Origin: Candidatus Cloacimonadota bacterium
GTDB lineage: Bacteria > Cloacimonadota > Cloacimonadia > Cloacimonadales > TCS61
DNA length: 34,095 nucleotides
NCBI GenBank assembly: GCA_021734245.1
Contig: JAIPJH010000023.1
Span: 1-34,095 of the forward strand
Direction of reading: 5' to 3'
Shown in pieces: positions 11,241-26,468 of the stretch. Under the pieces are notes generated by a model that was given only the letters and a program-made list of their open reading frames with translations, was not told the origin of the DNA and did no database searches. Each line of letters begins with the position of its first letter. The stretch's first letter is position 1. The position numbers were made by a program, and so were the translations under genes.

Positions 11241-11678
11241 ATGCAAAATATACAAAATCTCATTCAATTATTGCAAACAGCTATTTCTCCCATCGTATTA
11301 ATTTCTGGTGTAGGTTTGCTGCTCTTATCGCTAACCAATAGAATGGGTAGAGTTATCGATCGTTCCCGATATCTGGTTCAGGAAATTGAAGCCGGAAAAG
11401 ATGACCACAAAAAGCATGTACAGATCGGCATTTTATATCGTCGAAGCCATATTTTACGTGCTTCTATTACCTGCATTTCCATAACGATTCTGTTTGCCAG
11501 CATCATGATCCTGGAATTGTTCATCGGCTATTTTTCTCACCTGGATATTTCAAATTCTTTTATCGCATTTTTCGTTCTAGCAGTTATTACTCTTATTCTG
11601 GGAATTCTGCTTTTTCTGGTTGATATTGCAGTAACTTTGAAGGCACTAAAACTTCAGGTACAAGAATACATAAAATGA
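11241..11678 (+). CDS. DUF2721 family membrane protein
   Basis: This 145-residue protein has three hydrophobic segments (about 14-30, 75-95 and 107-130). The segment SPIVLISGVGLLLLSLTNRM followed by RVIDRSR is the characteristic beginning of DUF2721 proteins, whose function is unknown. The gene begins 3 nt after the nucleotidyltransferase gene and overlaps the next radical SAM gene by 4 nt, so it is part of a tightly packed run of genes. Confidence 0.85.
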   Translation: MQNIQNLIQLLQTAISPIVLISGVGLLLLSLTNRMGRVIDRSRYLVQEIEAGKDDHKKHVQIGILYRRSHILRASITCISITILFASIMILELFIGYFSHLDISNSFIAFFVLAVITLILGILLFLVDIAVTLKALKLQVQEYIK

Positions 11679-12610
11679 AATACAAACACCTTTTTGGACC
11701 GGTTCCTTCCCGACGTTTGGGAATGTCATTGGGAGTCGATCTGGTTCCACACAAAGTCTGTACTTTCAACTGCGTTTATTGCGAGGTAGGAAAAACAACA
11801 AATCATACGTTGGAACGCAAAGAATACGTTCCAATTGTAGAGGTTCTGGATGAGCTTAGCCACTATTTATCTCAAGAACCAGTTTTAGATTTTATCACAT
11901 TTTCGGGAGCTGGAGAGCCCACTTTAAATAGTGGAATAGGAGAAGTGGCAGAATTCATAAAAGAGAATTACCCCAAATACAAACTGGCACTTCTTACAAA
12001 TTCTTCTCTTCTAGGGCAGGAAGAAGTTAGAAATGAAGTAATAAATGTAGATTTGATTTTACCTTCTTTAGATGCTGTAAGCCAAGATGTGTTTGTAAAG
12101 ATCAATCAGCCACAAGAAGGAATATTTAGCGAAAAAATAATTGAAAGCCTTATCAGATTTAATCAGGAATTCTCGGGAGAAATGTGGTTGGAAGTCTTCA
12201 TTGTTCCAGCTGTTAATGATACAAAATCTGAGCTGAAGCTTATGAAAAAAGCAATTAAACAGATCAAGCCAGCCAAAATACAATTAAACACTTTAGATAG
12301 ACCGGGAACTGAAAACTGGGTGCAACCCAAAACAGAAAAAGAATTAAAAAAAATACTCAAATTCTTTAAACCTCTTCCTGTAGAAATCATTGCAAAATTT
12401 CGTACTCACGGTCAATTCTTCAGCTTTAACGAAGATATCGAAAATCAAATTTTCGAAACAATCAGAAGGAGGCCTTGTACATCTGCAGATTTATCAGAAA
12501 TGCTTGGTTTACCCGAAAGTGAAATTAACAAATATTTGAAAGAACTTCTTATTTTGAAAAAAATATTCACAGAATCTCGAGAACGGGGAGTTTTTTATCG
12601 TGCTCTCTGA
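11675..12610 (+). CDS. Radical SAM protein with C-terminal winged-helix-like domain (copy 1)
   Basis: This 311-residue protein has the radical SAM cluster motif CX3CX2C at C29, C33 and C36 (VCTFNCVYCEVG), preceded by the family opening LFGPVPSRRLGMSLGVDLVP. FSGAGEPTLN near 85-94 is the SAM-binding GGE-like motif and NTLDRPGT is another conserved block. The C-terminal 60 residues look like a small DNA-binding-type helix-turn-helix (RRPCTSADLSEMLGLPESEI). The family is annotated widely only as radical SAM (COG0731-like); the substrate is unknown. A close paralogue lies at 20686-21618. The 3' end overlaps the next gene by 11 nt. Confidence 0.92.
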   Translation: MKYKHLFGPVPSRRLGMSLGVDLVPHKVCTFNCVYCEVGKTTNHTLERKEYVPIVEVLDELSHYLSQEPVLDFITFSGAGEPTLNSGIGEVAEFIKENYPKYKLALLTNSSLLGQEEVRNEVINVDLILPSLDAVSQDVFVKINQPQEGIFSEKIIESLIRFNQEFSGEMWLEVFIVPAVNDTKSELKLMKKAIKQIKPAKIQLNTLDRPGTENWVQPKTEKELKKILKFFKPLPVEIIAKFRTHGQFFSFNEDIENQIFETIRRRPCTSADLSEMLGLPESEINKYLKELLILKKIFTESRERGVFYRAL

Positions 12611-14456: not shown

Positions 14457-14900
14457 ATGAAGAAGATTTTGGTCGCCATAGATTTTACTGAAGTTACAGA
14501 TCGTGTTATCGATTTTGCCAGCAAATTTGCTTTGGAATTCAAAGCTAAGCTCTGTATATTGCATTCAGAATCTTTCGACTATTACATTCCCGTTAACGAA
14601 TATGATGAATTCCCCCAGGTTTTGCAACTCAGAGAAAGTCGTTTGAAAGCCGTTAAGAAAAGGTTGAAAGATCTAAAAGCAAATTTGAAAAGTAATAGTT
14701 TGGATGTGAAAAGCGTTTTGATGGAAGGCCCTACAACTGACAATATACTTTCTGAAGCAGAAAAATTCAAAGCTGATCTCATTATTGTTGGTTCGCACAA
14801 ACATGGAAAGTTTTATAACCTGCTCTTCGGCAGCACCCACGATGAACTAATTAAACATTCCAAATTTCCTGTACTTGTTATACCACCAGTAGATAAATAA
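14457..14900 (+). CDS. Universal stress protein (UspA family)
   Basis: This 147-residue single Usp domain begins MKKILVAIDFTEVTDRV and has the ATP-loop region IIVGSHKHGKFYNLLFGST near residues 109-127, then HSKFPVLVIP. In the usual ATP-binding form the loop is G-2x-G-9x-G-S/T; here the second glycine is a lysine, so nucleotide binding may be weakened or altered. GGAGG lies upstream. The next gene begins on the base after the stop. Confidence 0.93.
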   Translation: MKKILVAIDFTEVTDRVIDFASKFALEFKAKLCILHSESFDYYIPVNEYDEFPQVLQLRESRLKAVKKRLKDLKANLKSNSLDVKSVLMEGPTTDNILSEAEKFKADLIIVGSHKHGKFYNLLFGSTHDELIKHSKFPVLVIPPVDK

Positions 14901-15293: not shown

Positions 15294-15560
15294 CAATCTG
15301 TAGATAAATACATCTCTTTGGAGTGAGCCAATCATTTGTTTCGCTTTTTTTGGACTGCATCAATTCTTTGATGCAAAGCGACAAAGTCGCTTTAAAAGAG
15401 CAGAGCTGTAACCAGTTCTAACGGCAAATAATTGTCAGACTGGAGTTCAGATTGATTATTTTCCGAAACCTGCAGTTCATTTTTTTTTAAACGTTAATTG
15501 TTCTGAACTCCACTCTCACTTCATTATAGTGAAGTCCAGATTAAAACTACAAAAAATAAT
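15294..15560. other. Hairpin-rich intergenic region
   Basis: No convincing gene is present. Nearby stem-loops are GCATCAA/TTGATGC (15357-15374, 4-nt loop) and AAAGCGAC/GTCGCTTT (15375-15393, 3-nt loop), back to back. A 10-bp perfect inverted repeat GGAGTTCAGA (15442-15451) and TCTGAACTCC (15502-15511) brackets about 50 nt. CTTCATTATAGTGAAG follows near 15520. None is followed by a good T-run. It may be a remnant repeat element or a structured transcript end or leader. Confidence 0.6.
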
Positions 15561-15589
15561 TTGACTTTTGCACATATGTGCATTACCTT
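15561..15589 (+). promoter_or_regulatory. Promoter with palindromic operator for the DUF134/NifX/MinD cluster
   Basis: TTGACT (15561-15566) as -35 and TACCTT (15584-15589) as a weak -10 are separated by 17 nt. The spacer contains the perfect 14-bp palindrome TGCACATATGTGCA (15569-15582). An operator covering the spacer would block RNA polymerase. The first gene downstream encodes a DUF134 helix-turn-helix regulator, which may act on it. The -10 is poor, consistent with a regulated promoter. Confidence 0.6.
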
Positions 15590-15619
15590 GTCTTCATAAT
15601 AAAAATAAAAGGATTGATT

Positions 15620-16075
15620 ATGCCGAGACCAAAGAAGAAAAGACTGGTTCACCGACCACCACTTTATACTTCTTTCAAACCAATTGGAGTTCGTGTAAAT
15701 GTTCTGGAACAAATTTCTTTAACATTGGACGAACTGGAAGCTATCAGATTAACTGATTTTGATGGTAAAGATCATGCTGAAGCTGCTGATGAGATGGAAA
15801 TTTCACGATCTACTTTTACCCGACTTATCGAAAAAGCACGTAGAAAAGTAGCTCAATTTCTGATTGAAGGAAAACACCTTTTCATCGAAGGTGGAGATGT
15901 GCATTTTAAAGGAAACATATTACGGTGTCAGCATTGTGGCCATATGTTTAAAACAGATTTTGAAAATCCAATGATAGTTTGTCCATCCTGTGGTTCAAAA
16001 GACCTGATGGATCTGGCTGGTGGATTTGGTCATGGAAAATGTTGTCGCGGTTTTAATCGAGGTCATGGGAGGTAA
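15620..16075 (+). CDS. DUF134 family helix-turn-helix regulator with zinc ribbon
   Basis: This 151-residue protein begins MPRPKKKRLV, the typical DUF134 opening. A sigma-70-region-4-like helix-turn-helix follows: LTLDELEAIRLTDFDG at about 35-50, then HAEAADEMEISRSTFTRLI at 52-70. A zinc-ribbon-like pair CQHC (C103, C106) and CPSC (C121, C124) comes next, and the tail GHGKCCRGF has two more cysteines (C141, C142). I chose 15620 because AAAGGA lies 6 nt upstream; a frame from 15578 would start inside the operator palindrome. The cysteine-rich C-terminus suggests metal or redox sensing (inference). It heads a cluster of NifX-like and ferredoxin-ATPase genes. Confidence 0.92.
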   Translation: MPRPKKKRLVHRPPLYTSFKPIGVRVNVLEQISLTLDELEAIRLTDFDGKDHAEAADEMEISRSTFTRLIEKARRKVAQFLIEGKHLFIEGGDVHFKGNILRCQHCGHMFKTDFENPMIVCPSCGSKDLMDLAGGFGHGKCCRGFNRGHGR

Positions 16076-16078
16076 ATT

Positions 16079-16261
16079 ATGCCAAGAGGCGATGGAACAG
16101 GACCAGAAGGAAAAGGTCCTCGCACAGGTAGAAGTTTGGGAAAAGCCAGCGGAAATAATATGGGCAGCGGAATTGGAAAACCCAGAAGAACTTCCGGTGG
16201 AAGAAATTCAAGTAGAAAAAATTCCGGTCAAGGTCTTGGTCGGGATAGAAACCGAAATTAA
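16079..16261 (+). CDS. Small DUF5320-like Gly/Arg-rich protein
   Basis: This 60-residue protein opens MPRGDGTGPEGKGPRTGRS, the MPRGDxTGPxGxGPxTGR signature seen also in the next gene. The rest is low-complexity Gly, Ser, Arg and Asn without cysteines. GGGAGG lies upstream, 3 nt after the DUF134 stop. Proteins with this signature typically lie beside NifX-like and MinD-type ATPase genes in anaerobes. The role is unknown. A longer frame from 16020 in another reading frame is a shadow. Confidence 0.8.
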   Translation: MPRGDGTGPEGKGPRTGRSLGKASGNNMGSGIGKPRRTSGGRNSSRKNSGQGLGRDRNRN

Positions 16262-16282
16262 TATTTTTTTTAGGAGGTAATT

Positions 16283-16591
16283 ATGCCAAGAGGTGATAGA
16301 ACGGGCCCAAATGGTATGGGACCAATGACAGGAAGAGTTTTAGGTTATTGCAATAATTTTGCCAGCCCAGGTTTTGGAAAAATGAGTCCCCGCGGAATGG
16401 GAAGAGGTTATTTTGGTCGTGGCGGTGGATTTGGTAGAGGATTCCGTCGTTTTCCCAATAGTGGTTGGAATTATGCAAACGTTCCAGACAGCAAAACCCA
16501 AAAAGCAATTTTAGAAGATGAGATCAAACTTCTCAGCGATCAACTGGAAGATATGAAAAAGCAGTTAACTGAGTTATCTCAAAATGAGTAA
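16283..16591 (+). CDS. DUF5320 family protein
   Basis: This 102-residue protein starts MPRGDRTGPNGMGPMTGR, with a single cysteine in GYCNNF (C23). A Gly/Arg/Phe-rich middle (FGRGGGFGRGFRRFP, about 45-59) is followed by a helical, probably coiled-coil C-terminus (LEDEIKLLSDQLEDMKKQL). AGGAGG sits at the right distance from the ATG. This is the complete form of the family, whereas the preceding gene is a shorter one lacking the coiled coil. Function unknown; the ORP-like context suggests a role with metal-cluster proteins. Confidence 0.88.
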   Translation: MPRGDRTGPNGMGPMTGRVLGYCNNFASPGFGKMSPRGMGRGYFGRGGGFGRGFRRFPNSGWNYANVPDSKTQKAILEDEIKLLSDQLEDMKKQLTELSQNE

Positions 16592-16630
16592 TATTTTTCA
16601 CAGGAGTTGATTATTCAGTTCCTGATTATC

Positions 16631-16658
16631 GGCAGGGGTTGATCTCTCCTCCCCTGCC
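16631..16658. terminator. GC-rich hairpin after the DUF5320 gene
   Basis: GGCAGGGG (16631-16638) pairs perfectly with CCCCTGCC (16651-16658) over a 12-nt loop, 39 nt past the stop. Only AATTTAAAT follows, so it is a weak intrinsic terminator at best; it could be an attenuating or mRNA-stabilising stem. Confidence 0.4.
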
Positions 16659-16668
16659 AATTTAAATC

Positions 16669-16703
16669 TTCGGAATGTTCCGGCAACCGCTGGATCTTCC
16701 GAA
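16669..16703. repeat. Dispersed TTCGGAA/TTCCGAA hairpin element
   Basis: TTCGGAA (16669-16675) and TTCCGAA (16697-16703) form a perfect 7-bp stem, with an inner CCGG/CCG arm. The CTTCGGAATGTT core is the same as in the 65-bp repeats at 6370-6626. Confidence 0.6.
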
Positions 16704-16733
16704 TGTTTTATACTCAAATCAAGGATTTAGTTA

Positions 16734-17018
16734 ATGAAATCGAATAATAGAAATTATCGTTATAGAAATCGTAGAAATAAAACTTTTTCCGGAAGGAATT
16801 CAGTTGTCTCTACTCTAATAACTGCGTTTGCAAGTATCGTAACAAAAGATCTTCTAAGCGACAATAGCAAAATTAAAAGATTCCTGAAAAATACCTTCCA
16901 ACCCCAAAAAATAGAAAAGCAAAAGAAAAAAGAAATTATAGATGGAAAATACTCTGTTTTGGATGAAATTTCTGAAACAGAAGAACAAAAAATAAAACAT
17001 ATTGGAGAAAAGAAATGA
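16734..17018 (+). CDS. Small basic protein of unknown function in the ORP-like cluster
   Basis: This 94-residue protein has a strongly basic, Asn/Arg-rich start (MKSNNRNYRYRNRRNKTF), a short hydrophobic stretch near 23-37 (SVVSTLITAFASIVT) that could be a helix or a marginal membrane segment, and a Lys/Glu-rich tail. There is no convincing Shine-Dalgarno. The last codons overlap the next gene by 4 nt (ATGA), which supports that it is translated. No family recognised. Confidence 0.65.
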   Translation: MKSNNRNYRYRNRRNKTFSGRNSVVSTLITAFASIVTKDLLSDNSKIKRFLKNTFQPQKIEKQKKKEIIDGKYSVLDEISETEEQKIKHIGEKK

Positions 17019-17353
17019 ACAAGAAAATCGCTATTCCCACTACACGTGGCGAGTTAAGTGCACATTTTGGACATTGTGAGAAATTCGCAATTTATGATAT
17101 CCACGACAACAAAATTATCAAAGAAGAATTCGTAACTCCTCCTCCTCACGAACCAGGATCGCATCCAGCTTTCTTAAGAGAATTAGGTTGTGATGCTATT
17201 ATTGCAGGAGGAATGGGATCGCGTGCTCAATCGTTGTTTGCCCAAAATAATATTGAAGTTATCATTGGTTTACGTTCTGATAATTTAGAAGGACTCGTGG
17301 AAGAATATATCTCTGGCAATTTAGAATCTGGTGAAAATCTCTGCGATCACTAA
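17015..17353 (+). CDS. NifX/NifB-type (dinitrogenase FeMo-cofactor family) small protein, copy 1
   Basis: This 112-residue single-domain protein opens KKIAIPTTRGELSAHFGHCEKFAIYD and contains CDAIIAGGMGSRAQSLF, both typical of the dinitrogenase iron-molybdenum cofactor family that includes the 'orange protein' ORP. It ends with the family's common CDH tail. Such proteins bind labile metal-sulfur clusters; ORP carries a Mo-Cu sulfide cluster. The gene overlaps the upstream small gene by 4 nt. No nif structural genes are nearby, so nitrogenase assembly is unlikely and a redox or cell-division-related ORP role is the better guess. Confidence 0.93.
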   Translation: MNKKIAIPTTRGELSAHFGHCEKFAIYDIHDNKIIKEEFVTPPPHEPGSHPAFLRELGCDAIIAGGMGSRAQSLFAQNNIEVIIGLRSDNLEGLVEEYISGNLESGENLCDH

Positions 17354-17431
17354 AGGAACATCGATTTGCTCGGAAAATTTAAATATGATTTGTAATCAGT
17401 ATTTTCTGTGTAAATCCGTGAGTAAATAAAA

Positions 17432-18298
17432 ATGAAAATAGCCATTGCCAGCGGAAAAGGTGGAACCGGAAAGACTACACTTTCCACCAATCTTGCTCTA
17501 TTTCTGTCGGAAAAACAAGCAGTGATCCTGACCGACCTCGACGTAGAAGAACCGAATTCAGGATTGTTTATTAACGGCAAACTGATCCATCAGGAAGACA
17601 AATTCAAAATGATACCTTCCTGGAAAAAAGAAAATTGTACACTTTGTGGAAACTGTCAGAAAGTCTGTAATTTTAATGCTATAATAAAGCTGGGAAAACG
17701 AATTATGACCTTCCCGGAATTATGCCATAGCTGTTTTGCCTGCAGCGAACTTTGCCCGACAAAATCACTGCCCATGATCCCGCAGAAAATGGGAGAGTTA
17801 AAACACTTTTCGTTAGAAAATTTGGATTTTATCGAAAGTAAATTGGATATCGGACAGGAACAGGCAGTTCCATTAATTGCAAAGACATTAGATTATATCG
17901 ATCAGAAATTTGGTAATAACATCATCAAACTTTTCGATGCACCTCCTGGAACTTCCTGCCCGGTAATAGAAGCGACAAAAGATGCGGATTTCATAATTTT
18001 AGTAACCGAACCAACTCCTTTCGGTTTGCACGATCTGAAATTGGCTGTAGATACAATGAAAGCTCTCAAAAAGAATTTTGCTGTAGTAATAAATCGTTTT
18101 GGCATTGGAAATAATGGTGTCATCGATTATTGCAAAAGTGAAGAAGTTAAAATTCTGGCAAAACTTCCCAACTATCGTCACATTGCAGAATTGTATTCTC
18201 GTGGTGAATCGATATATCAACACATTCCAATTTTCAAAACTGAATTACAGAAAATTGCTGATCACATAATTAAGCTGCAAACCGGAGTTGCAAAATGA
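17432..18298 (+). CDS. MinD/Mrp-type ATPase with ferredoxin insert, copy 1
   Basis: This 288-residue P-loop ATPase has the deviant Walker A SGKGGTGKTTL (residues 7-17), LTDLDVEEPN as switch I and LFDAPPGTSCP as Walker B/switch II. Two CX2CX2CX3C motifs (C69, C72, C75, C79 and C98, C101, C104, C108) should hold two [4Fe-4S] clusters. This is the architecture of the paired MinD ATPases in ORP loci, where the two act together. The stop overlaps the second ATPase gene by 4 nt. The 78-nt gap upstream contains a short TGTGTAAATCCGTG repeat-like sequence. Electron transfer or cluster delivery to the NifX-like proteins is inferred from context. Confidence 0.95.
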   Translation: MKIAIASGKGGTGKTTLSTNLALFLSEKQAVILTDLDVEEPNSGLFINGKLIHQEDKFKMIPSWKKENCTLCGNCQKVCNFNAIIKLGKRIMTFPELCHSCFACSELCPTKSLPMIPQKMGELKHFSLENLDFIESKLDIGQEQAVPLIAKTLDYIDQKFGNNIIKLFDAPPGTSCPVIEATKDADFIILVTEPTPFGLHDLKLAVDTMKALKKNFAVVINRFGIGNNGVIDYCKSEEVKILAKLPNYRHIAELYSRGESIYQHIPIFKTELQKIADHIIKLQTGVAK

Positions 18299-19197
18299 AA
18301 GAAATAGTTGTTATCTCCGGAAAAGGCGGCACCGGCAAAACATCTATCACAGCATCTTTTGCAATATTGGGTGGCAAAAATATAGTGGTGGCAGATTGCG
18401 ATGTGGATGCCGCCGATATGCACCTGTTGCTGCAACCTGATTGGAATTTCTCAGAAGATTTTTTCAGCGGAGTTGCAGCTGAGATCGATCAGGATAAATG
18501 CATAAAGTGTGGTAAATGCGCTGATGTTTGCCGATTCAATGCAATTCCAATCGTTGAAAAAAAATACGTTGTGAACGATCTTAATTGTGAAGGTTGTGGA
18601 TTTTGCTTTCATGTTTGTCCTCGTGATGCTATTTCCATGATAGAACAGAATGTAGGAAAATGGTTCATCTCCAACACAAAAGCAGAAAATCACATGGTTC
18701 ATGCAGCTTTAAAAATCGGAGCAGATAATTCCGGCAAATTAGTGGCAAAAGTAAAAAAGGAAGCCAAGCAGATAGCTGTTTCAGAAGAAAAGGCTTTCAT
18801 CATCGTTGACGGTTCTCCAGGTATCGGTTGTCCTGTTGTTTCTTCTCTTTCCGGAGCAGATTATGCTATTCTGGTAACCGAACCTTCAGTTTCTGGTATT
18901 CATGACCTGAAAAGGGTTTACGAATTGGTTAAAAAATTTAAGATACCCGCTGCTTGCATAATCAATAAAGCTGATATTAATACCGATGTAACAGCTCAGA
19001 TAAAAGCATTCCTGGATGAAGAGAATATTATACATCTGGTTGATCTGCCTTATGACGAAACATTTACCAAAGCAATGACGGCAGGTAAAACGATCATCGA
19101 ATTTGGAGAAAGTGAGATGAAAAAGTTAGTGGAAAATAGTTGGAGAAAAATAAAAGAACTGCTTACAGATAAACAAAAAAGAAGCTCCCCTTCGTAA
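18295..19197 (+). CDS. MinD/Mrp-type ATPase with ferredoxin insert, copy 2
   Basis: This 300-residue paralogue of the preceding protein has Walker A SGKGGTGKTS (residues 8-17), VVADCDVDAAD and VDGSPGIGCPV. Its eight ferredoxin cysteines (C69, C72, C75, C79, C98, C101, C104, C108) fall at exactly the same residue numbers as in copy 1, so the pair is likely to form a heterodimer or matched complex. The C-terminus (KIKELLTDK then QKRSSPS) appears altered: the coding end is repeated twice downstream at 19264 and 19382. The latter copy reads GATGAACACTAA after the shared part, suggesting that the ancestral end was TDEH. Confidence 0.94.
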   Translation: MKEIVVISGKGGTGKTSITASFAILGGKNIVVADCDVDAADMHLLLQPDWNFSEDFFSGVAAEIDQDKCIKCGKCADVCRFNAIPIVEKKYVVNDLNCEGCGFCFHVCPRDAISMIEQNVGKWFISNTKAENHMVHAALKIGADNSGKLVAKVKKEAKQIAVSEEKAFIIVDGSPGIGCPVVSSLSGADYAILVTEPSVSGIHDLKRVYELVKKFKIPAACIINKADINTDVTAQIKAFLDEENIIHLVDLPYDETFTKAMTAGKTIIEFGESEMKKLVENSWRKIKELLTDKQKRSSPS

Positions 19198-19418
19198 GGA
19201 GAGATCAGAGGGGTTTTTATGCCAAACAAATAAATGTAATTTGGAGCAAACCCCCTTCCAAGGGAGACAAAAATAAAAGAGTTGCTCACAGAAAAAAAAG
19301 CTCCCCTTCGTAAGGGGAGATACAGAGGGGTTTTTTATGCCAAACAAATAAATGTAATTTGGAGCAAACCCCCTTCCAAGGGAGACAAAAATAAAAGAGT
19401 TGCTCACAGATGAACACT
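19143..19418. repeat. Duplicated gene end plus two ~83-bp palindromic elements
   Basis: The segment AAAATAAAAGA(A/G)(C/T)TGCT(T/C)ACAGA occurs at about 19147, 19270 and 19388, with periods of about 121 and 118 bp. Between copies lie two elements (19185-19266 and 19301-19384). Each starts CTCCCCTTCGTAAGG and ends CCCCCTTCCAAGGGAG; the inner parts AGGGGTTT/AAACCCCC and GCCAAA/TTTGGAGC also pair, giving a nested imperfect palindrome. The first copy of the flanking segment is the coding end of the ATPase gene. It looks like insertion of a MITE-like or REP-like element with flank duplication, or tandem duplication afterwards. Confidence 0.8.
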
Positions 19419-19438
19419 AAAAGCACGAAAAATGGATC

Positions 19439-19467
19439 AGTGTAATTCCGTGAAAATCCGTGAGCTA
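19439..19467. repeat. Short CCGTG-type dispersed repeat
   Basis: AGTGTAATTCCGTGAAAATCCGTGAG contains two CCGTG units 10 nt apart, just upstream of the second NifX-like gene. A related TGTGTAAATCCGTGAG lies at about 17407-17422 upstream of the first ATPase gene. This resembles short repeats scattered in many environmental bacterial genomes. Confidence 0.4.
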
Positions 19468-19479
19468 ATGGAGAAAACA

Positions 19480-19818
19480 ATGAAAATAGCTTTTACGGCA
19501 AAAGGAACAGAGTGGGATTCACAAATGGATCCTCGTTTTGGAAGAACAGAATTCATCGTAATTTATGATGATGAAAAAGATGAAATGAAAAACGTTGATA
19601 ATCGAGATATTGAAGGTGTGGCTCATGGTGCCGGTCCTCAAACAGCTCAAAAACTCTTCGATCTAAAACCTGATGTTTTGATCACAGGAAATGGCCCTGG
19701 TGGAAATGCAGGCAGAGTTCTTCAGCAAGCTAATATGAAAATTTTTATCGGTGCCGGAAACATGACGGTGAAAGAAGCGTATGAAGCTTTTAAAGATGGC
19801 AAGTTAAGTAACAATTAA
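19480..19818 (+). CDS. NifX/NifB-type small protein, copy 2 (ORP-like)
   Basis: This 112-residue protein starts MKIAFTAKGTEWDSQMDPRF, with GRTEFIVIYDD and VLITGNGPGGNAGRVLQ, the form of the dinitrogenase cofactor family closest to ORP-type proteins. Start 19480 is chosen because GGAG sits 6 nt upstream and the family N-terminus fits. It has no cysteine, so any cluster would be held by other ligands, unlike copy 1 with C24 and a CDH tail. It follows the duplicated repeat region and precedes the MBL-fold gene by 7 nt. Confidence 0.93.
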   Translation: MKIAFTAKGTEWDSQMDPRFGRTEFIVIYDDEKDEMKNVDNRDIEGVAHGAGPQTAQKLFDLKPDVLITGNGPGGNAGRVLQQANMKIFIGAGNMTVKEAYEAFKDGKLSNN

Positions 19819-19825
19819 TCCATTT

Positions 19826-20464
19826 ATGAAAATCACGATCGTTTACGACAACACAACAGAAATACCGGGTTTGCTGGCAGATTGGGGTTGGTCATGTTTG
19901 GTGGAAAAACAAGATAGGAAAATCTTGTTTGATACAGGTGGCAACGGAAAAATCCTGCTGGAAAACATGCTGGCTTTGAATATCGATCCTACCTCGATCG
20001 ACGATGTCGTCATCTCGCATTCGGATTTCGATCATATCGGGGGATTATCCACTTTTCTGAATGCCAATCCAACCGCAGTTGTTCATATTCCGATTTCCTT
20101 TCGTGGTATTCATTATCCAAACCAAGTAAAATATTACAATTCTCCAACTGAAATTTATTCTGGATTTTTCCTGTCTGGAGAGCTGGACAAGCGTGAACAA
20201 TCACTCGCTGTAAAAACTGAAAAAGGTTTGGTTTTGGTGGTTGGTTGCGGTCATCCAGGAGTTGGAAAGATTATGGAATCTTTTTCTCAATTTGGAGATA
20301 TCTGTTCTATTGTAGGAGGTCTCCACGGTTTCAAGGAATTTGAACTTCTAACAAATATTGAGAAAATTTGCCCATCTCATTGTACAGTTCATAAAGCTAG
20401 AATAAAACAACTTCATCCTGAAAAATACCTGGAAGGTGGAGTTGGAGAAGTATTCTTGTTATGA
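19826..20464 (+). CDS. Metallo-beta-lactamase-fold hydrolase (COG1237-like)
   Basis: This 212-residue MBL-fold protein begins MKITIVYDNTTEIPGLLADW and has KILFDTGGNGKILLEN, then the metal motif SHSDFDHIGG (H65, D67, D69, H70). In the classical HxHxDH motif the second position is His; here it is Asp. Further metal-ligand candidates are VVGCGHPG (H at about residue 147) and GGLHGF. The C-terminal PSHCTVHK also fits the COG1237 group. These proteins are often encoded with ORP/MinD genes. The substrate is unknown. The stop overlaps the next small gene by 4 nt. Confidence 0.92.
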   Translation: MKITIVYDNTTEIPGLLADWGWSCLVEKQDRKILFDTGGNGKILLENMLALNIDPTSIDDVVISHSDFDHIGGLSTFLNANPTAVVHIPISFRGIHYPNQVKYYNSPTEIYSGFFLSGELDKREQSLAVKTEKGLVLVVGCGHPGVGKIMESFSQFGDICSIVGGLHGFKEFELLTNIEKICPSHCTVHKARIKQLHPEKYLEGGVGEVFLL

Positions 20465-20661
20465 GGGATACTCAATGTAAATGGTATCAGACTTGTCCGA
20501 TGAAATACTTTATAGAACAGGGTAAACTGGATAAAAAATGGATGGAAAAATATTGCTGGGGAGACTGGCAAAACTGTATTCGTTTTCAATTGGAAGAAAA
20601 GGGTATTTTTCATTCTGACAACATGCTGCCAGACGGAATGATAAATAATAGTTTAATCTGA
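20461..20661 (+). CDS. Four-cysteine mini-protein
   Basis: This 66-residue protein has C6, C12, C32 and C39 in QCKWYQTCPMKY and KYCWGDWQNCIRFQ, suitable for one zinc ion or an Fe-S cluster. It also has several aromatic residues and a conserved-looking end (FHSDNMLPDGMI). ATGA overlap with the MBL-fold gene indicates co-translation. I recall similar small cysteine proteins in anaerobes and archaea annotated inconsistently, but I cannot name a family. It closes the ORP-like cluster. Confidence 0.82.
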   Translation: MRDTQCKWYQTCPMKYFIEQGKLDKKWMEKYCWGDWQNCIRFQLEEKGIFHSDNMLPDGMINNSLI

Positions 20662-20685: not shown

Positions 20686-21618
20686 ATGAAATATTTATTT
20701 GGTCCGGTTCCTTCCCGCAGATTGGGTATTTCGCTGGGAGTGGATTTGGTTCCGCATAAAGTATGCAGTCTGAATTGTGTATATTGCGAAGTGGGAAGAA
20801 CAACCAATCTGACCATTGAAAGAAAAAAATATATTCCAATCAATGAAGTTATCGCAGAATTAAAGGAATATCTGAAACAAAAACCGGAGCTCGATTTTGT
20901 TACCTTTTCAGGTCAGGGAGAGCCAACTTTGAACAGTGGTTTAGGAAAAGTAATAGATTTCATCAAAGACCATTTTCCCCAATACAAAGTAGCCGTGATT
21001 ACAAATGGAACTCTCTTCTGGAATGCCAAAGTTCGCGCTGAAGTAGCTCGTACCGATGTACTTCTACCTTCTCTCGATGCGGTTTCCCGAAAGATGTTTC
21101 TGAAAATTAACCGTCCAAGTAAATTTTTGGAGATCAAAAAAATCATTGCGGGGCTTGTTCGACTTAAACAAGAATATGAAGGCAAAATTAATCTGGAAAT
21201 TTTCCTGATTCCTCACCTTAATGATACTGAAGAAGAATTGCTTCTATTGAAAGAAGCAGTTGATAAAATCAAGCCCGATCTGATTCAATTAAATACACTT
21301 GATCGACCGGGCACGGTAAGTTCTGTCAAAGCTGTTTCTCGCAAAAACCTTCTTAGAATCAAATCCTTTTTTGAACCCCTGCCCGTGGAAATCATCGCCA
21401 AACCGGAAACCAGAAAACGAATATCGAGTTTTAACCAAGACATCGAAGAAATGATTTTGGAAACTATCAAAAGAAGACCCTGTACCGATAAAGATCTGAC
21501 AGAAATCTTGAATCTTCATCAGAATGAACTCAATAAATATCTTAGCGAATTGATCGACTCCGGGAAAATCATCTCCGAGCAATTGGATCGGGGATTGTTT
21601 TTCAAACTCAGGAATTGA
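20686..21618 (+). CDS. Radical SAM protein with C-terminal winged-helix-like domain (copy 2)
   Basis: This 310-residue protein is a close paralogue of the one at 11675-12610: LFGPVPSRRLGISLGVDLVP, the CX3CX2C cluster at C27, C31 and C34, FSGQGEPTLNSGLG, NTLDRPGT and a C-terminal RRPCTDKDLTEIL module are all shared, by eye at well over half of positions. AAGGA lies 7 nt before the start. Placement right after the ORP-like cluster may indicate that it acts with those metal-sulfur proteins, but the gap of 24 nt and its own ribosome binding site leave this open. Confidence 0.92.
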   Translation: MKYLFGPVPSRRLGISLGVDLVPHKVCSLNCVYCEVGRTTNLTIERKKYIPINEVIAELKEYLKQKPELDFVTFSGQGEPTLNSGLGKVIDFIKDHFPQYKVAVITNGTLFWNAKVRAEVARTDVLLPSLDAVSRKMFLKINRPSKFLEIKKIIAGLVRLKQEYEGKINLEIFLIPHLNDTEEELLLLKEAVDKIKPDLIQLNTLDRPGTVSSVKAVSRKNLLRIKSFFEPLPVEIIAKPETRKRISSFNQDIEEMILETIKRRPCTDKDLTEILNLHQNELNKYLSELIDSGKIISEQLDRGLFFKLRN

Positions 21619-21648: not shown

Positions 21649-22497
21649 ATGAAAACCTATCTTGATTGCTTTCCCTGTTTTTTGCAGCAAGCTTTGCGCG
21701 CCGGCAGAATTGCCGGAGCCGATGAGCAGACTTTGAAAAAATTATTGGATGAGGTGGGGCAGATGCTGAAGGATATTCCGCTTTCCCACACACCGCCGGA
21801 AACAGGCGAGATCATCTACGGAATGATCTCAAAAATTACTGGCAACAGCGATCCCTATAAAAAAATCAAGCAGCAAAACATCGAATATGCAATGCAGCTT
21901 TATCCCGACCTGAAAAATAGGATCAAAAAATCCGAAGATCCGTTGCTGACTGCTATCCGACTGGCCATTGCCGGCAATGTGATCGATCTCGGCGTGAATC
22001 GAAAATTCGATCTTGTTAAAGATATCGAAACTGTCCTGGAACAGGAGTTTACCGTCTTTGATTATCAGCGGTTCAAAGCCGGATTGGCTAATTCAGACAA
22101 AATTCTCTATCTTGCCGATAATGCCGGCGAAACTGTGTTTGATAAGCTCCTGATCGAAGAATTGAGAAAGCCGGTAATTTATGCCGTGCGTGAAATTCCT
22201 GTTTTAAACGACGTAACCATCGTTGAAGCCAGACAGATCGGCATCGATAAAGTGGCTACTGTTATATCTTCCGGTTCCACCGCACCCGGCACGATCCTGA
22301 AAAATTGCAGCCCTTCATTTATAGAAATTTTTAATAATTCCGACCTGATCATCAGCAAGGGACAGGGAAATTACGAAGGACTTTCCGGGGAAGATGCGCC
22401 AATATTTTTTCTGCTGAAAGTGAAATGCGAAGTCATCGGCAGAGATCTGGAAGTGCCCCCCAATGCCATCATCCTGAAGGGATCGGAAGCATGCTGA
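21649..22497 (+). CDS. DUF89 family metal-dependent phosphatase
   Basis: This 282-residue protein opens with CFPCFLQQALRAG (C7 and C10), as in subfamily I DUF89 proteins, and contains YLADNAGETVFDKLL at about 153-167, the signature with metal-binding Asp and Asn, and SKGQGNYEGLSG near 240-251. DUF89 members are 'damage-control' phosphatases acting on phosphorylated metabolites. The DNA is visibly richer in G+C than its neighbours (two counted lines are 33/60 and 32/60 G+C, another 26/60). The stop overlaps the VOC gene start by 7 nt. Confidence 0.93.
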   Translation: MKTYLDCFPCFLQQALRAGRIAGADEQTLKKLLDEVGQMLKDIPLSHTPPETGEIIYGMISKITGNSDPYKKIKQQNIEYAMQLYPDLKNRIKKSEDPLLTAIRLAIAGNVIDLGVNRKFDLVKDIETVLEQEFTVFDYQRFKAGLANSDKILYLADNAGETVFDKLLIEELRKPVIYAVREIPVLNDVTIVEARQIGIDKVATVISSGSTAPGTILKNCSPSFIEIFNNSDLIISKGQGNYEGLSGEDAPIFFLLKVKCEVIGRDLEVPPNAIILKGSEAC

Positions 22498-25445: not shown

Positions 25446-26468
25446 ATGATCCTGGAAATAATTGAACATGCATTTATGATAACCGGTTTTGTGTTTGTAA
25501 TGATGCTGGTGATCGAATATGTGAATGTTCAAACAAAAGGAAGCTGGCATCAGGTTCTGCAAAATAAACGCTGGCTACAGTATGTTCTGGCTGCCGTATT
25601 AGGAGTAATTCCCGGTTGCCTGGGCTCTTTCACTGTCGTTGCGCTCTTCTCACACAATATTGTTTCATTCGGAGCTTTGGTCACCACAATGATAGCTACC
25701 AGTGGCGATGAAGCTTTCGTTATGCTTGCTATGTTCCCGGCTGATGCATTGAAGCTTTTTGCAATATTGTTTATAGTTGGAATTGGAGCTGGAATTCTAA
25801 CCGATAAATTATTTCCAAAGCTAAACTTTACGAAAAAATTCGGTCATCAAAAATTACCTTTGCATGAAGAACAGAAATGTGACTGCTTCAATTTTAAAAA
25901 CATTATCCAGCAAGTAAAACGACCATCCTTGCAACGTGTGTTGCTATTTGTCATCGTAGGATTTTTGATTTATGGAATTATGATTGGTTACATTGCGCAT
26001 GAAGAAAAGAGCTGGATAAGAAATACCTTACTGGTCACATCTTTCATTGCTCTTTACATCATCATCACCGTTCCCGATCATTTTCTGAAAGAACATCTCT
26101 GGAATCACATTGTCAAAGTTCATATTCCCAAAATTCTGCTCTGGACTTTTGGAGCTTTACTGATTATTCATTTCCTGTTGGATTCTATAGACATCAAAGC
26201 CTGGGTTCAGAGTAACATTATAGTTGTTCTTTTAGTTGCTTGCATCATTGGTCTGATTCCGGAATCAGGACCTCACCTGATTTTTGTTACTCTTTTTGCT
26301 ACCGGATCAATTCCGTTCAGTGTTCTTGTGGCAAGTTCAATTGTACAAGATGGACACGGCATGATCCCGCTTCTGGCAGAAACGAAACGTGGTTTCATCT
26401 TGGTAAAAGCCATAAATTTCGGTTTCGGTTTTGTTATCGGTTTATTGGGATTGCTTAGCGGATTTTGA
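25446..26468 (+). CDS. 10-TM heavy-metal exporter-like protein (ArsP_2/DUF2899 type)
   Basis: This 340-residue membrane protein has about ten helices in two related halves. GVIPGCLGSFTVVALF with IATSGDEAF (about 55-95) and GLIPESGPHLIFVTLF with IVQDGHG (about 270-305) are matching blocks, consistent with an inverted-repeat transporter. A central cytoplasmic loop has HEEQKCDCF. This resembles the putative 10TM heavy-metal/arsenic/manganese exporter family; no in-frame TGA suggests selenocysteine. GGGAGGAG lies at the right distance. The substrate is not determined. Confidence 0.82.
   Translation: MILEIIEHAFMITGFVFVMMLVIEYVNVQTKGSWHQVLQNKRWLQYVLAAVLGVIPGCLGSFTVVALFSHNIVSFGALVTTMIATSGDEAFVMLAMFPADALKLFAILFIVGIGAGILTDKLFPKLNFTKKFGHQKLPLHEEQKCDCFNFKNIIQQVKRPSLQRVLLFVIVGFLIYGIMIGYIAHEEKSWIRNTLLVTSFIALYIIITVPDHFLKEHLWNHIVKVHIPKILLWTFGALLIIHFLLDSIDIKAWVQSNIIVVLLVACIIGLIPESGPHLIFVTLFATGSIPFSVLVASSIVQDGHGMIPLLAETKRGFILVKAINFGFGFVIGLLGLLSGF

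Follow-up and report, generated by a model that had tools for sequence, protein, structure and literature searches.

Gene content of the locus

We analysed a gene locus of the 'orange protein' (ORP) type in a Candidatus Cloacimonadota bacterium (NCBI GenBank assembly GCA_021734245.1). The locus lies on contig JAIPJH010000023.1, of which positions 1 to 34,095 of the forward strand were analysed (34,095 nucleotides, hereafter the window); the window is one of the contigs of a 3.1-Mb genome that is 98.5% complete. Reading of the open reading frames, together with family profile searches of the window, placed ten genes between 15620 and 20661, all on the plus strand. The original prediction had described a run of nine genes; all those it named are present on one strand, but they number ten, and two starts are shifted, to 15620 and 19480. 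ATG 15620 is the most likely start of the first gene, DUF134, because the first upstream start codon, GTG 15578, falls within a promoter palindrome, and comparison with homologues makes 19480, rather than 19432, the most likely start of the ORP-type protein DiN2. The window was also searched for RNA elements and tRNAs, and none were found. By the linkage patterns given below, the ten genes do not form one unit, and are to be read as a core, listed here, with a looser downstream module.

15561-15589, plus strand: putative operon promoter, TTGACT (15561-15566), a 17-nt spacer holding the palindrome, and TACCTT (15584-15589), from sequence reading
15569-15582, no strand: palindromic candidate operator TGCACATATGTGCA, proposed binding site of DUF134, from conservation of upstream regions
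15620-16075, plus strand: DUF134, helix-turn-helix and zinc-ribbon protein, proposed repressor of the locus (PF02001, E 4.3e-22; DUF134-ORP fusions)
16079-16261, plus strand: DUF5320 short form, 60 residues, isoelectric point (pI) 12, no coiled coil (PF17253, E 1.7e-7, 32.7 bits)
16283-16591, plus strand: DUF5320 long form, 102 residues, with a cationic N part rich in Gly, Arg and aromatic residues (pI 11.7) and an acidic C-terminal helix region (PF17253, E 8.7e-29, 101 bits)
16734-17018, plus strand: basic protein, 94 residues, probable divergent DUF5320-like variant with a hydrophobic segment (locus linkage; G010 and G011 members over the PF17253 cut-off)
17015-17353, plus strand: DiN1, stand-alone Di-Nase domain of the MrpORP type, SAHFGHCE...CDH (NF041136 positions 264-365, E 1.5e-35)
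17432-18298, plus strand: ATPase1, MinD/Mrp-like P-loop ATPase with two [4Fe-4S] ferredoxin motifs, Orp3/Orp4 type (CbiA/ParA and 4Fe-4S profiles)
18295-19197, plus strand: ATPase2, of the same architecture and Orp3/Orp4 type, overlapping ATPase1 by 4 nt (CbiA/ParA and 4Fe-4S profiles)
19480-19818, plus strand: DiN2, ORP-type Di-Nase with an RFGR motif and no conserved cysteine (phmmer to Desulfovibrio gigas ORP, 2wfb, E 9.9e-13)

Conservation was followed in two samples, namely whole-genome searches of 59 genomes of the Cloacimonadota order, and a wider survey of 80 loci chosen by ATPase2 alone and covering, by our own phylum assignment, about 16 phyla. In both, the linkage of the genes at the locus is far above chance. 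Across the order the recurrent arrangement is DUF134, one or two DUF5320 genes, the basic protein, DiN1, ATPase1, ATPase2 and DiN2, into which an Mrp or a universal stress protein (Usp) gene is sometimes inserted. In many relatives (L082, L085, L097, L109, L114) the Usp gene stands between DiN1 or the basic protein and ATPase1; in the window it lies instead upstream of DUF134, at 14457-14900. The gap between ATPase2 and DiN2 (19143-19421) holds two tandem copies of 118 nt that are nearly identical (99% over 83 nt) and a third partial one, and a part of this repeat of about 33 nt, with the stem CTCCCCTTCGTAAGGGGAG, recurs about 28 times elsewhere in the source genome.

Ferredoxin-type ATPases and Di-Nase proteins

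ATPase1 and ATPase2 share cysteines 69, 72, 75, 79, 98, 101, 104 and 108, which bears out the earlier claim of eight ferredoxin cysteines at identical positions. In ATPase2 the eight are invariant in 19 homologues, down to about 40% identity, and ATPase1 was found in 40 of the 59 order genomes.

DiN1 and DiN2 both belong to the Pfam Nitro_FeMo-Co/Di-Nase family (E 1e-20 and 6e-13, respectively) and are the only two Di-Nase genes found in a genome-wide search, both at the ORP locus. A midpoint split of a tree built from 151 Di-Nase domains places them in different halves. DiN1 matches the C-terminal domain of MrpORP (NF041136), whose HFGHC and CDH motifs (PMC6345978) it bears, and clusters with the Mrp-Di-Nase fusions; it differs from MrpORP in lacking a fused P-loop domain and in having a serine for the first cysteine of CXHFGHCE. 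DiN2 groups with all of the DUF5320 and DUF134 fusions, the 13 of which lie in the ORP half of the tree, while both Mrp fusions lie in the other half; Mrp is thus fused solely to the non-ORP type. The ingredients of an ORP system are thus present at the locus, though of MrpORP it has just the Di-Nase half. In relatives, Mrp and Di-Nase are encoded either as one fused protein or by separate genes, and the one full-length Mrp match of the source genome lies on another contig (C1:152022-152768). A third type of Di-Nase protein, of about 130 residues and containing FATDDGKTFMSRHFGD, follows DiN2 in many relatives (L087 7645-8049, L089 10262-10654, L079 5579-5971); the Di-Nase search did not find it in the source genome.

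The ORP complex of Desulfovibrio (Orp3, Orp4, Orp8, Orp9/MrpORP and Orp5; operon composition from PMC6345978 and PMC3897727) likewise combines a pair of ferredoxin-type MinD/Mrp ATPases with an ORP-type and an MrpORP-type Di-Nase in one locus. Three differences set it apart from the locus described here, which has the Di-Nase half of MrpORP as a separate protein and no Mrp half, shows DUF134 and the palindrome instead of the sigma-54 activator DVU2106, and has DUF5320 and basic proteins in addition. No sigma-54 activator gene was found among the core genes; one flanks the related ATPase-less locus of G006, and the corresponding locus of G021 is flanked by a similar gene. The earlier assignment of the core to known ORP loci is thereby upheld, with Orp3/Orp4-type ATPases, DiN2 matching 2wfb and DiN1 matching the Di-Nase half of MrpORP. 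By these homologies the locus belongs to the ORP type and is the Cloacimonadota form of the known cluster of 'orange protein' genes found in anaerobes.

DUF5320 and the basic protein

The Pfam gathering cut-off of PF17253 is 27 bits, and both proteins of the window that begin with MPRGD exceed it. DUF5320 is present in 38 of the 59 order genomes, in 33 of which it stands beside the ATPase pair on the same contig. Of the other five, G011 has a truncated copy of the cluster, G030 has the gene with DUF134 on a short contig, and G046 has it on a separate contig; the last two have no ATPase pair, yet their DUF5320 still sits with Di-Nase genes (G006 two, G021 three) and ARMT1. In the 80 loci, the density of DUF5320 hits drops from 2.24 per 10 kb at distances of up to 1 kb from the ATPase pair to 0-0.07 at distances above 4.5 kb, and DUF5320 occurs in 34 of the 41 loci that have 3-kb flanks.

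The basic protein was found in 22 of the 59 genomes and is located in the ORP locus in all 22; in the 80-locus survey it occurs in Cloacimonadota only. The member in the window has no Pfam or NCBIfam match over cut-off. Its counterparts in G010 and G011 score above the cut-off of PF17253, and the N-terminus of the G010 protein is that of DUF5320. We read the basic protein as a divergent, Cloacimonadota-only DUF5320-like variant, and our guess is that its hydrophobic segment contacts the membrane.

Domain fusions connect DUF5320 with the ORP type of Di-Nase. Eight proteins run from an ORP-type Di-Nase into a DUF5320 region, all eight over both Pfam cut-offs. They form three clades, in which the two Cloacimonadota proteins stand clearly apart from the rest; the fusion is thus seen in two or three lineages independently. 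One of the eight (L210) carries an extra ferredoxin, and another protein (L207) joins DUF5320 to a ferredoxin. The predicted model of a natural ORP-DUF5320 fusion has the ORP fold (2wfb, TM 0.92 by target length), a disordered stretch at residues 117-151 and a helix at 154-185. A natural fusion of this kind is encoded at L212 5984-6541. Two further ORP proteins (L179 3140-3811, L189 6428-7018) have a tail rich in Gly, Arg and Met that ends in a CxxC zinc-ribbon-like motif and not in the DUF5320 helix. Taken together, linkage and fusions indicate that DUF5320 belongs to the ORP system.

The N parts of 27 long-form DUF5320 proteins contain on average 30% Gly, 15% Lys/Arg and 15% aromatic residues, with a pI of 10.6, and their C parts are acidic (pI 4.8) and nearly free of Gly. 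For comparison, the tail of IssA of Pyrococcus furiosus has 15 Gly, 7 cationic and 14 aromatic residues among 70 (21%, 10% and 20%), with a pI of 10.7, and is proposed to bind anionic thioferrate (PMC5524996). IssA thus resembles the present system in pairing a Di-Nase domain with a cationic, disordered segment rich in Gly and aromatic residues, which here would be a partner protein. It differs in that its tail is fused, whereas DUF5320 would act in trans and has an additional acidic helix. The Di-Nase proteins of the window have no fused cationic Gly/aromatic tail; homologues elsewhere do have one. A full-text literature search, which mostly left out subscription papers, yielded no paper on the function of DUF5320; the family is mentioned in two papers, and the title of neither concerns what it does.

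DUF134 and the promoter palindrome

The DUF134 protein of the window has, as in the DUF134/UPF0251 family (PF02001), a helix-turn-helix like that of sigma-70 region 4 and a zinc ribbon. DUF134 is also fused to an ORP-type Di-Nase in five proteins from three clades. The layout of its putative promoter, TTG followed by the palindrome and TTATNTTG, is also seen in the upstream regions of relatives; a generic promoter scan did not return the stretch at 15561-15589.

The palindrome occurs with at most 3 mismatches in 58 of 76 distinct DUF134 upstream regions, against 0.85 expected from Markov-shuffled sequences, a test that is not blind, as the consensus was picked after the 76 regions had been viewed. 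Its specificity within genomes is independent of that choice: pattern searches, which served as the regulon scan of the source genome, found TGCACATATGTGCA as the sole site at 1 mismatch or fewer in 3.1 Mb. The upstream regions that carry it come from at least 8 phyla, between which the arms covary (TGCACATATGTGCA, TGAACATATGTTCA, TGGACATATGTCCA, TGAGCATATGCTCA). Across the 59 order genomes, TGNACATATGTNCA has 29 occurrences (counted by hand): 21 precede the first gene of the locus, five fall within the coding sequence of DUF134 and three lie at other places. A reversed pattern, used as control, has 2. The five sites inside the coding sequence were judged to be coincidental codons. From these observations we infer that DUF134 represses its own operon through the promoter palindrome. 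Neither an operator nor a target of DUF134/UPF0251 was found in the full-text search, where subscription papers were again mostly outside its reach, and the palindrome ahead of the cluster, which the literature searched does not describe, appears to be new. Upstream of the candidate operator, at 15434-15519, lies an imperfect inverted repeat with 25-nt arms 36 nt apart (GGAGTTCAGA/TCTGAACTCC).

Downstream accessory module

The core is followed by four genes that we assign to an accessory module.

19826-20464, plus strand: MBL-fold hydrolase (PF00753, E 9.8e-13; near the ATPase pair in 13 of 80 loci)
20461-20661, plus strand: four-cysteine mini-protein (C6, C12, C32, C39), no family, homologous to a C-terminal extension of uracil-DNA glycosylase
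20686-21618, plus strand: radical SAM protein (PF04055, E 1.3e-15; near the pair in 11 of 80 loci)
21649-22497, plus strand: ARMT1/DUF89-type damage-control phosphatase (PF01937, E 2.1e-72; near the pair in 14 of 80 loci)

The expected linkage of the small genes to the ORP genes in other genomes was found for DUF5320 and the basic protein and not for the four-cysteine gene, which is present in 20 of the 59 order genomes and adjoins ORP genes in only four of the 20 (G000, G014, G023, G036). In several other carriers it forms the C-terminal 60 or so residues of a 252-residue uracil-DNA glycosylase, and elsewhere a glycosylase gene stands between the MBL and four-cysteine genes. The proposal that all the genes make up one set is not supported as it stands, as the four-cysteine domain is fused to the glycosylase in several genomes and the MBL gene travels with it. 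We considered the four-cysteine protein as a core ORP part and rejected this because of the glycosylase fusions and the loose linkage in Cloacimonadota, keeping it as accessory. Nor does it seem to be a piece split from the glycosylase of its own genome, of which the only one found (on contig C12) lies elsewhere and has no such extension. Stand-alone four-cysteine copies lie within 4.5 kb of the ATPase pair in 6 of the 80 loci (Omnitrophota, Neomarinimicrobiota, Spirochaetota), and in Omnitrophota loci the MBL, radical SAM and ARMT1 genes recur too. Because these genes recur near some ATPase pairs, the tie of the module to ORP loci is, on this linkage, real but looser.

Some features of the module and its surroundings stand apart from this argument. 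In the MBL protein the metal motif, usually HxHxDH, reads HSDFDH, with the second His replaced by Asp, so its metal site may be unusual. The AlphaFold model of the four-cysteine protein is poor (mean pLDDT 67.6, pTM 0.37). Glycosylases with a four-cysteine C-terminal extension are encoded beside an MBL gene in L124 (8159-8917) and L130 (3411-4169), and the extension is possibly an additional metal site. The locus is flanked by radical SAM paralogues at 11675-12610 and 20686-21618 that match one model; many relatives retain such a gene ahead of DUF134.

Proposed function and alternatives

Sequence comparison establishes the gene set and its conservation, the domain fusions, and the homologies to ATPases of the Orp3/Orp4 type, to ORP and to the Di-Nase half of MrpORP. 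The reading that we favour, with a probability of roughly 0.55, is an ORP-type metal-sulfide system of anaerobic Cloacimonadota in which DUF5320 serves as a tail in trans and DUF134 as the operon repressor. In this scheme the two ferredoxin-ATPases would draw on ATP and electrons to assemble an anionic metal-sulfide cluster on DiN2 or to set it free, and DiN1, with the Mrp protein encoded elsewhere in the genome, would supply Fe-S units. The DUF5320 and basic proteins would be cationic tails, disordered and detachable, that bind the anionic cluster or polymer electrostatically and so keep it on DiN2, a role modelled on IssA, whose fused tail has been proposed to hold thioferrate; subunits may be joined by the acidic helix of the long form. 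DUF134 would repress the whole operon from TGCACATATGTGCA in its promoter, and the MBL, four-cysteine, radical SAM and ARMT1 proteins would remain a looser accessory module outside the core machine.

Several observations weigh against this reading. DUF5320 is absent from the five Campylobacterota loci and from some others that retain the ATPases and ORP, and is therefore not indispensable. Its likeness to the IssA tail is one of composition, not of homology, and low-complexity Gly/Arg sequence can bind RNA or DNA too. The match of the -10 element (15584-15589) is weak, and the locus has no Mrp gene, unlike that of many relatives. Binding to nucleic acids is common among cationic proteins rich in Gly and Arg, and it is conceivable, if improbable, that the DUF5320 and basic proteins are hitch-hikers in the operon that bind RNA or the nucleoid; the short form, with its pI of 12 and no acidic C-terminal helix, would fit such a role. 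Its fusion with ferredoxins and, in two or three lineages independently, with the ORP domain argues against such a role for DUF5320, as does the persistence of DUF5320 beside Di-Nase genes in carriers that have no ATPase pair. A role in cell division or positioning, in which MinD/ParA-like ATPases would place the septum or the chromosome and the small basic proteins would anchor DNA or membrane, seems to us a little more doubtful still. The ATPases do match MinD profiles weakly, the hydrophobic segment of the basic protein would suit an anchor, a division role has been proposed by those who studied the Desulfovibrio ORP complex (PMC4672049; PMC3897727), and MrpORP has been seen at the cell poles (PMC6345978). 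Nevertheless, the minD_arch scores of 49 and 61 bits are far under the cut-off of 202, and the eight conserved ferredoxin cysteines of each ATPase speak for redox or metal chemistry, as do the proteins in which a ferredoxin is fused to ORP or DUF5320.

A response to heavy-metal or sulfide stress, in which the cluster would trap copper or molybdenum at toxic levels or a surplus of iron and sulfide, and in which the exporter- and chelatase-like downstream genes would take part, is unlikely but deserves some weight. It would be in keeping with a repressor that has a single target, as for an inducible response, with the storage of iron and sulfur by IssA when both are abundant (PMC5524996), with a DUF364 putative heavy-metal chelation gene in the module of one relative, and with an ArsP_2 putative heavy-metal exporter at 25446-26468, a gene that directly follows the locus in L077, L080, L099 and L135. 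The tie to the exporter was traced within the phylum, and this explanation overlaps with the metal-sulfide system and does not exclude it. A carrier system for a nitrogenase cofactor (FeMo-co, NifX-NafY) might be suggested by the Pfam family of both Di-Nase proteins, which is named for the FeMo cofactor, but is hardly credible. No nitrogenase component above its family cut-off was found in the 98.5% complete genome, so that the original statement that none lies nearby extends genome-wide, and on this ground a nitrogenase role for the locus was rejected. There is also no further Di-Nase gene, the nifX and nifB models match the two proteins far below cut-off, and their nearest solved sequences are ORP and its relatives.

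The metal-sulfide system may reach beyond the Cloacimonadota. More tentatively, we suggest an ORP-based machine for metal-sulfide assembly or storage, spread over anaerobes of many phyla, in which an IssA-like tail has been split off as DUF5320, with up to three copies per locus, one of them possibly membrane-associated. The dose or the exchange of these tails could then control the cluster, and the whole operon would be switched by a DUF134 repressor of its own that has a single operator in each genome.

The present analysis would tie two orphan families to the ORP complex, DUF5320 as a partner and DUF134 as a regulator with a 14-bp site, and would link the ORP system to iron-sulfide storage of the IssA type. 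DUF5320 and DUF134 may thereby gain a functional context in many anaerobic phyla.

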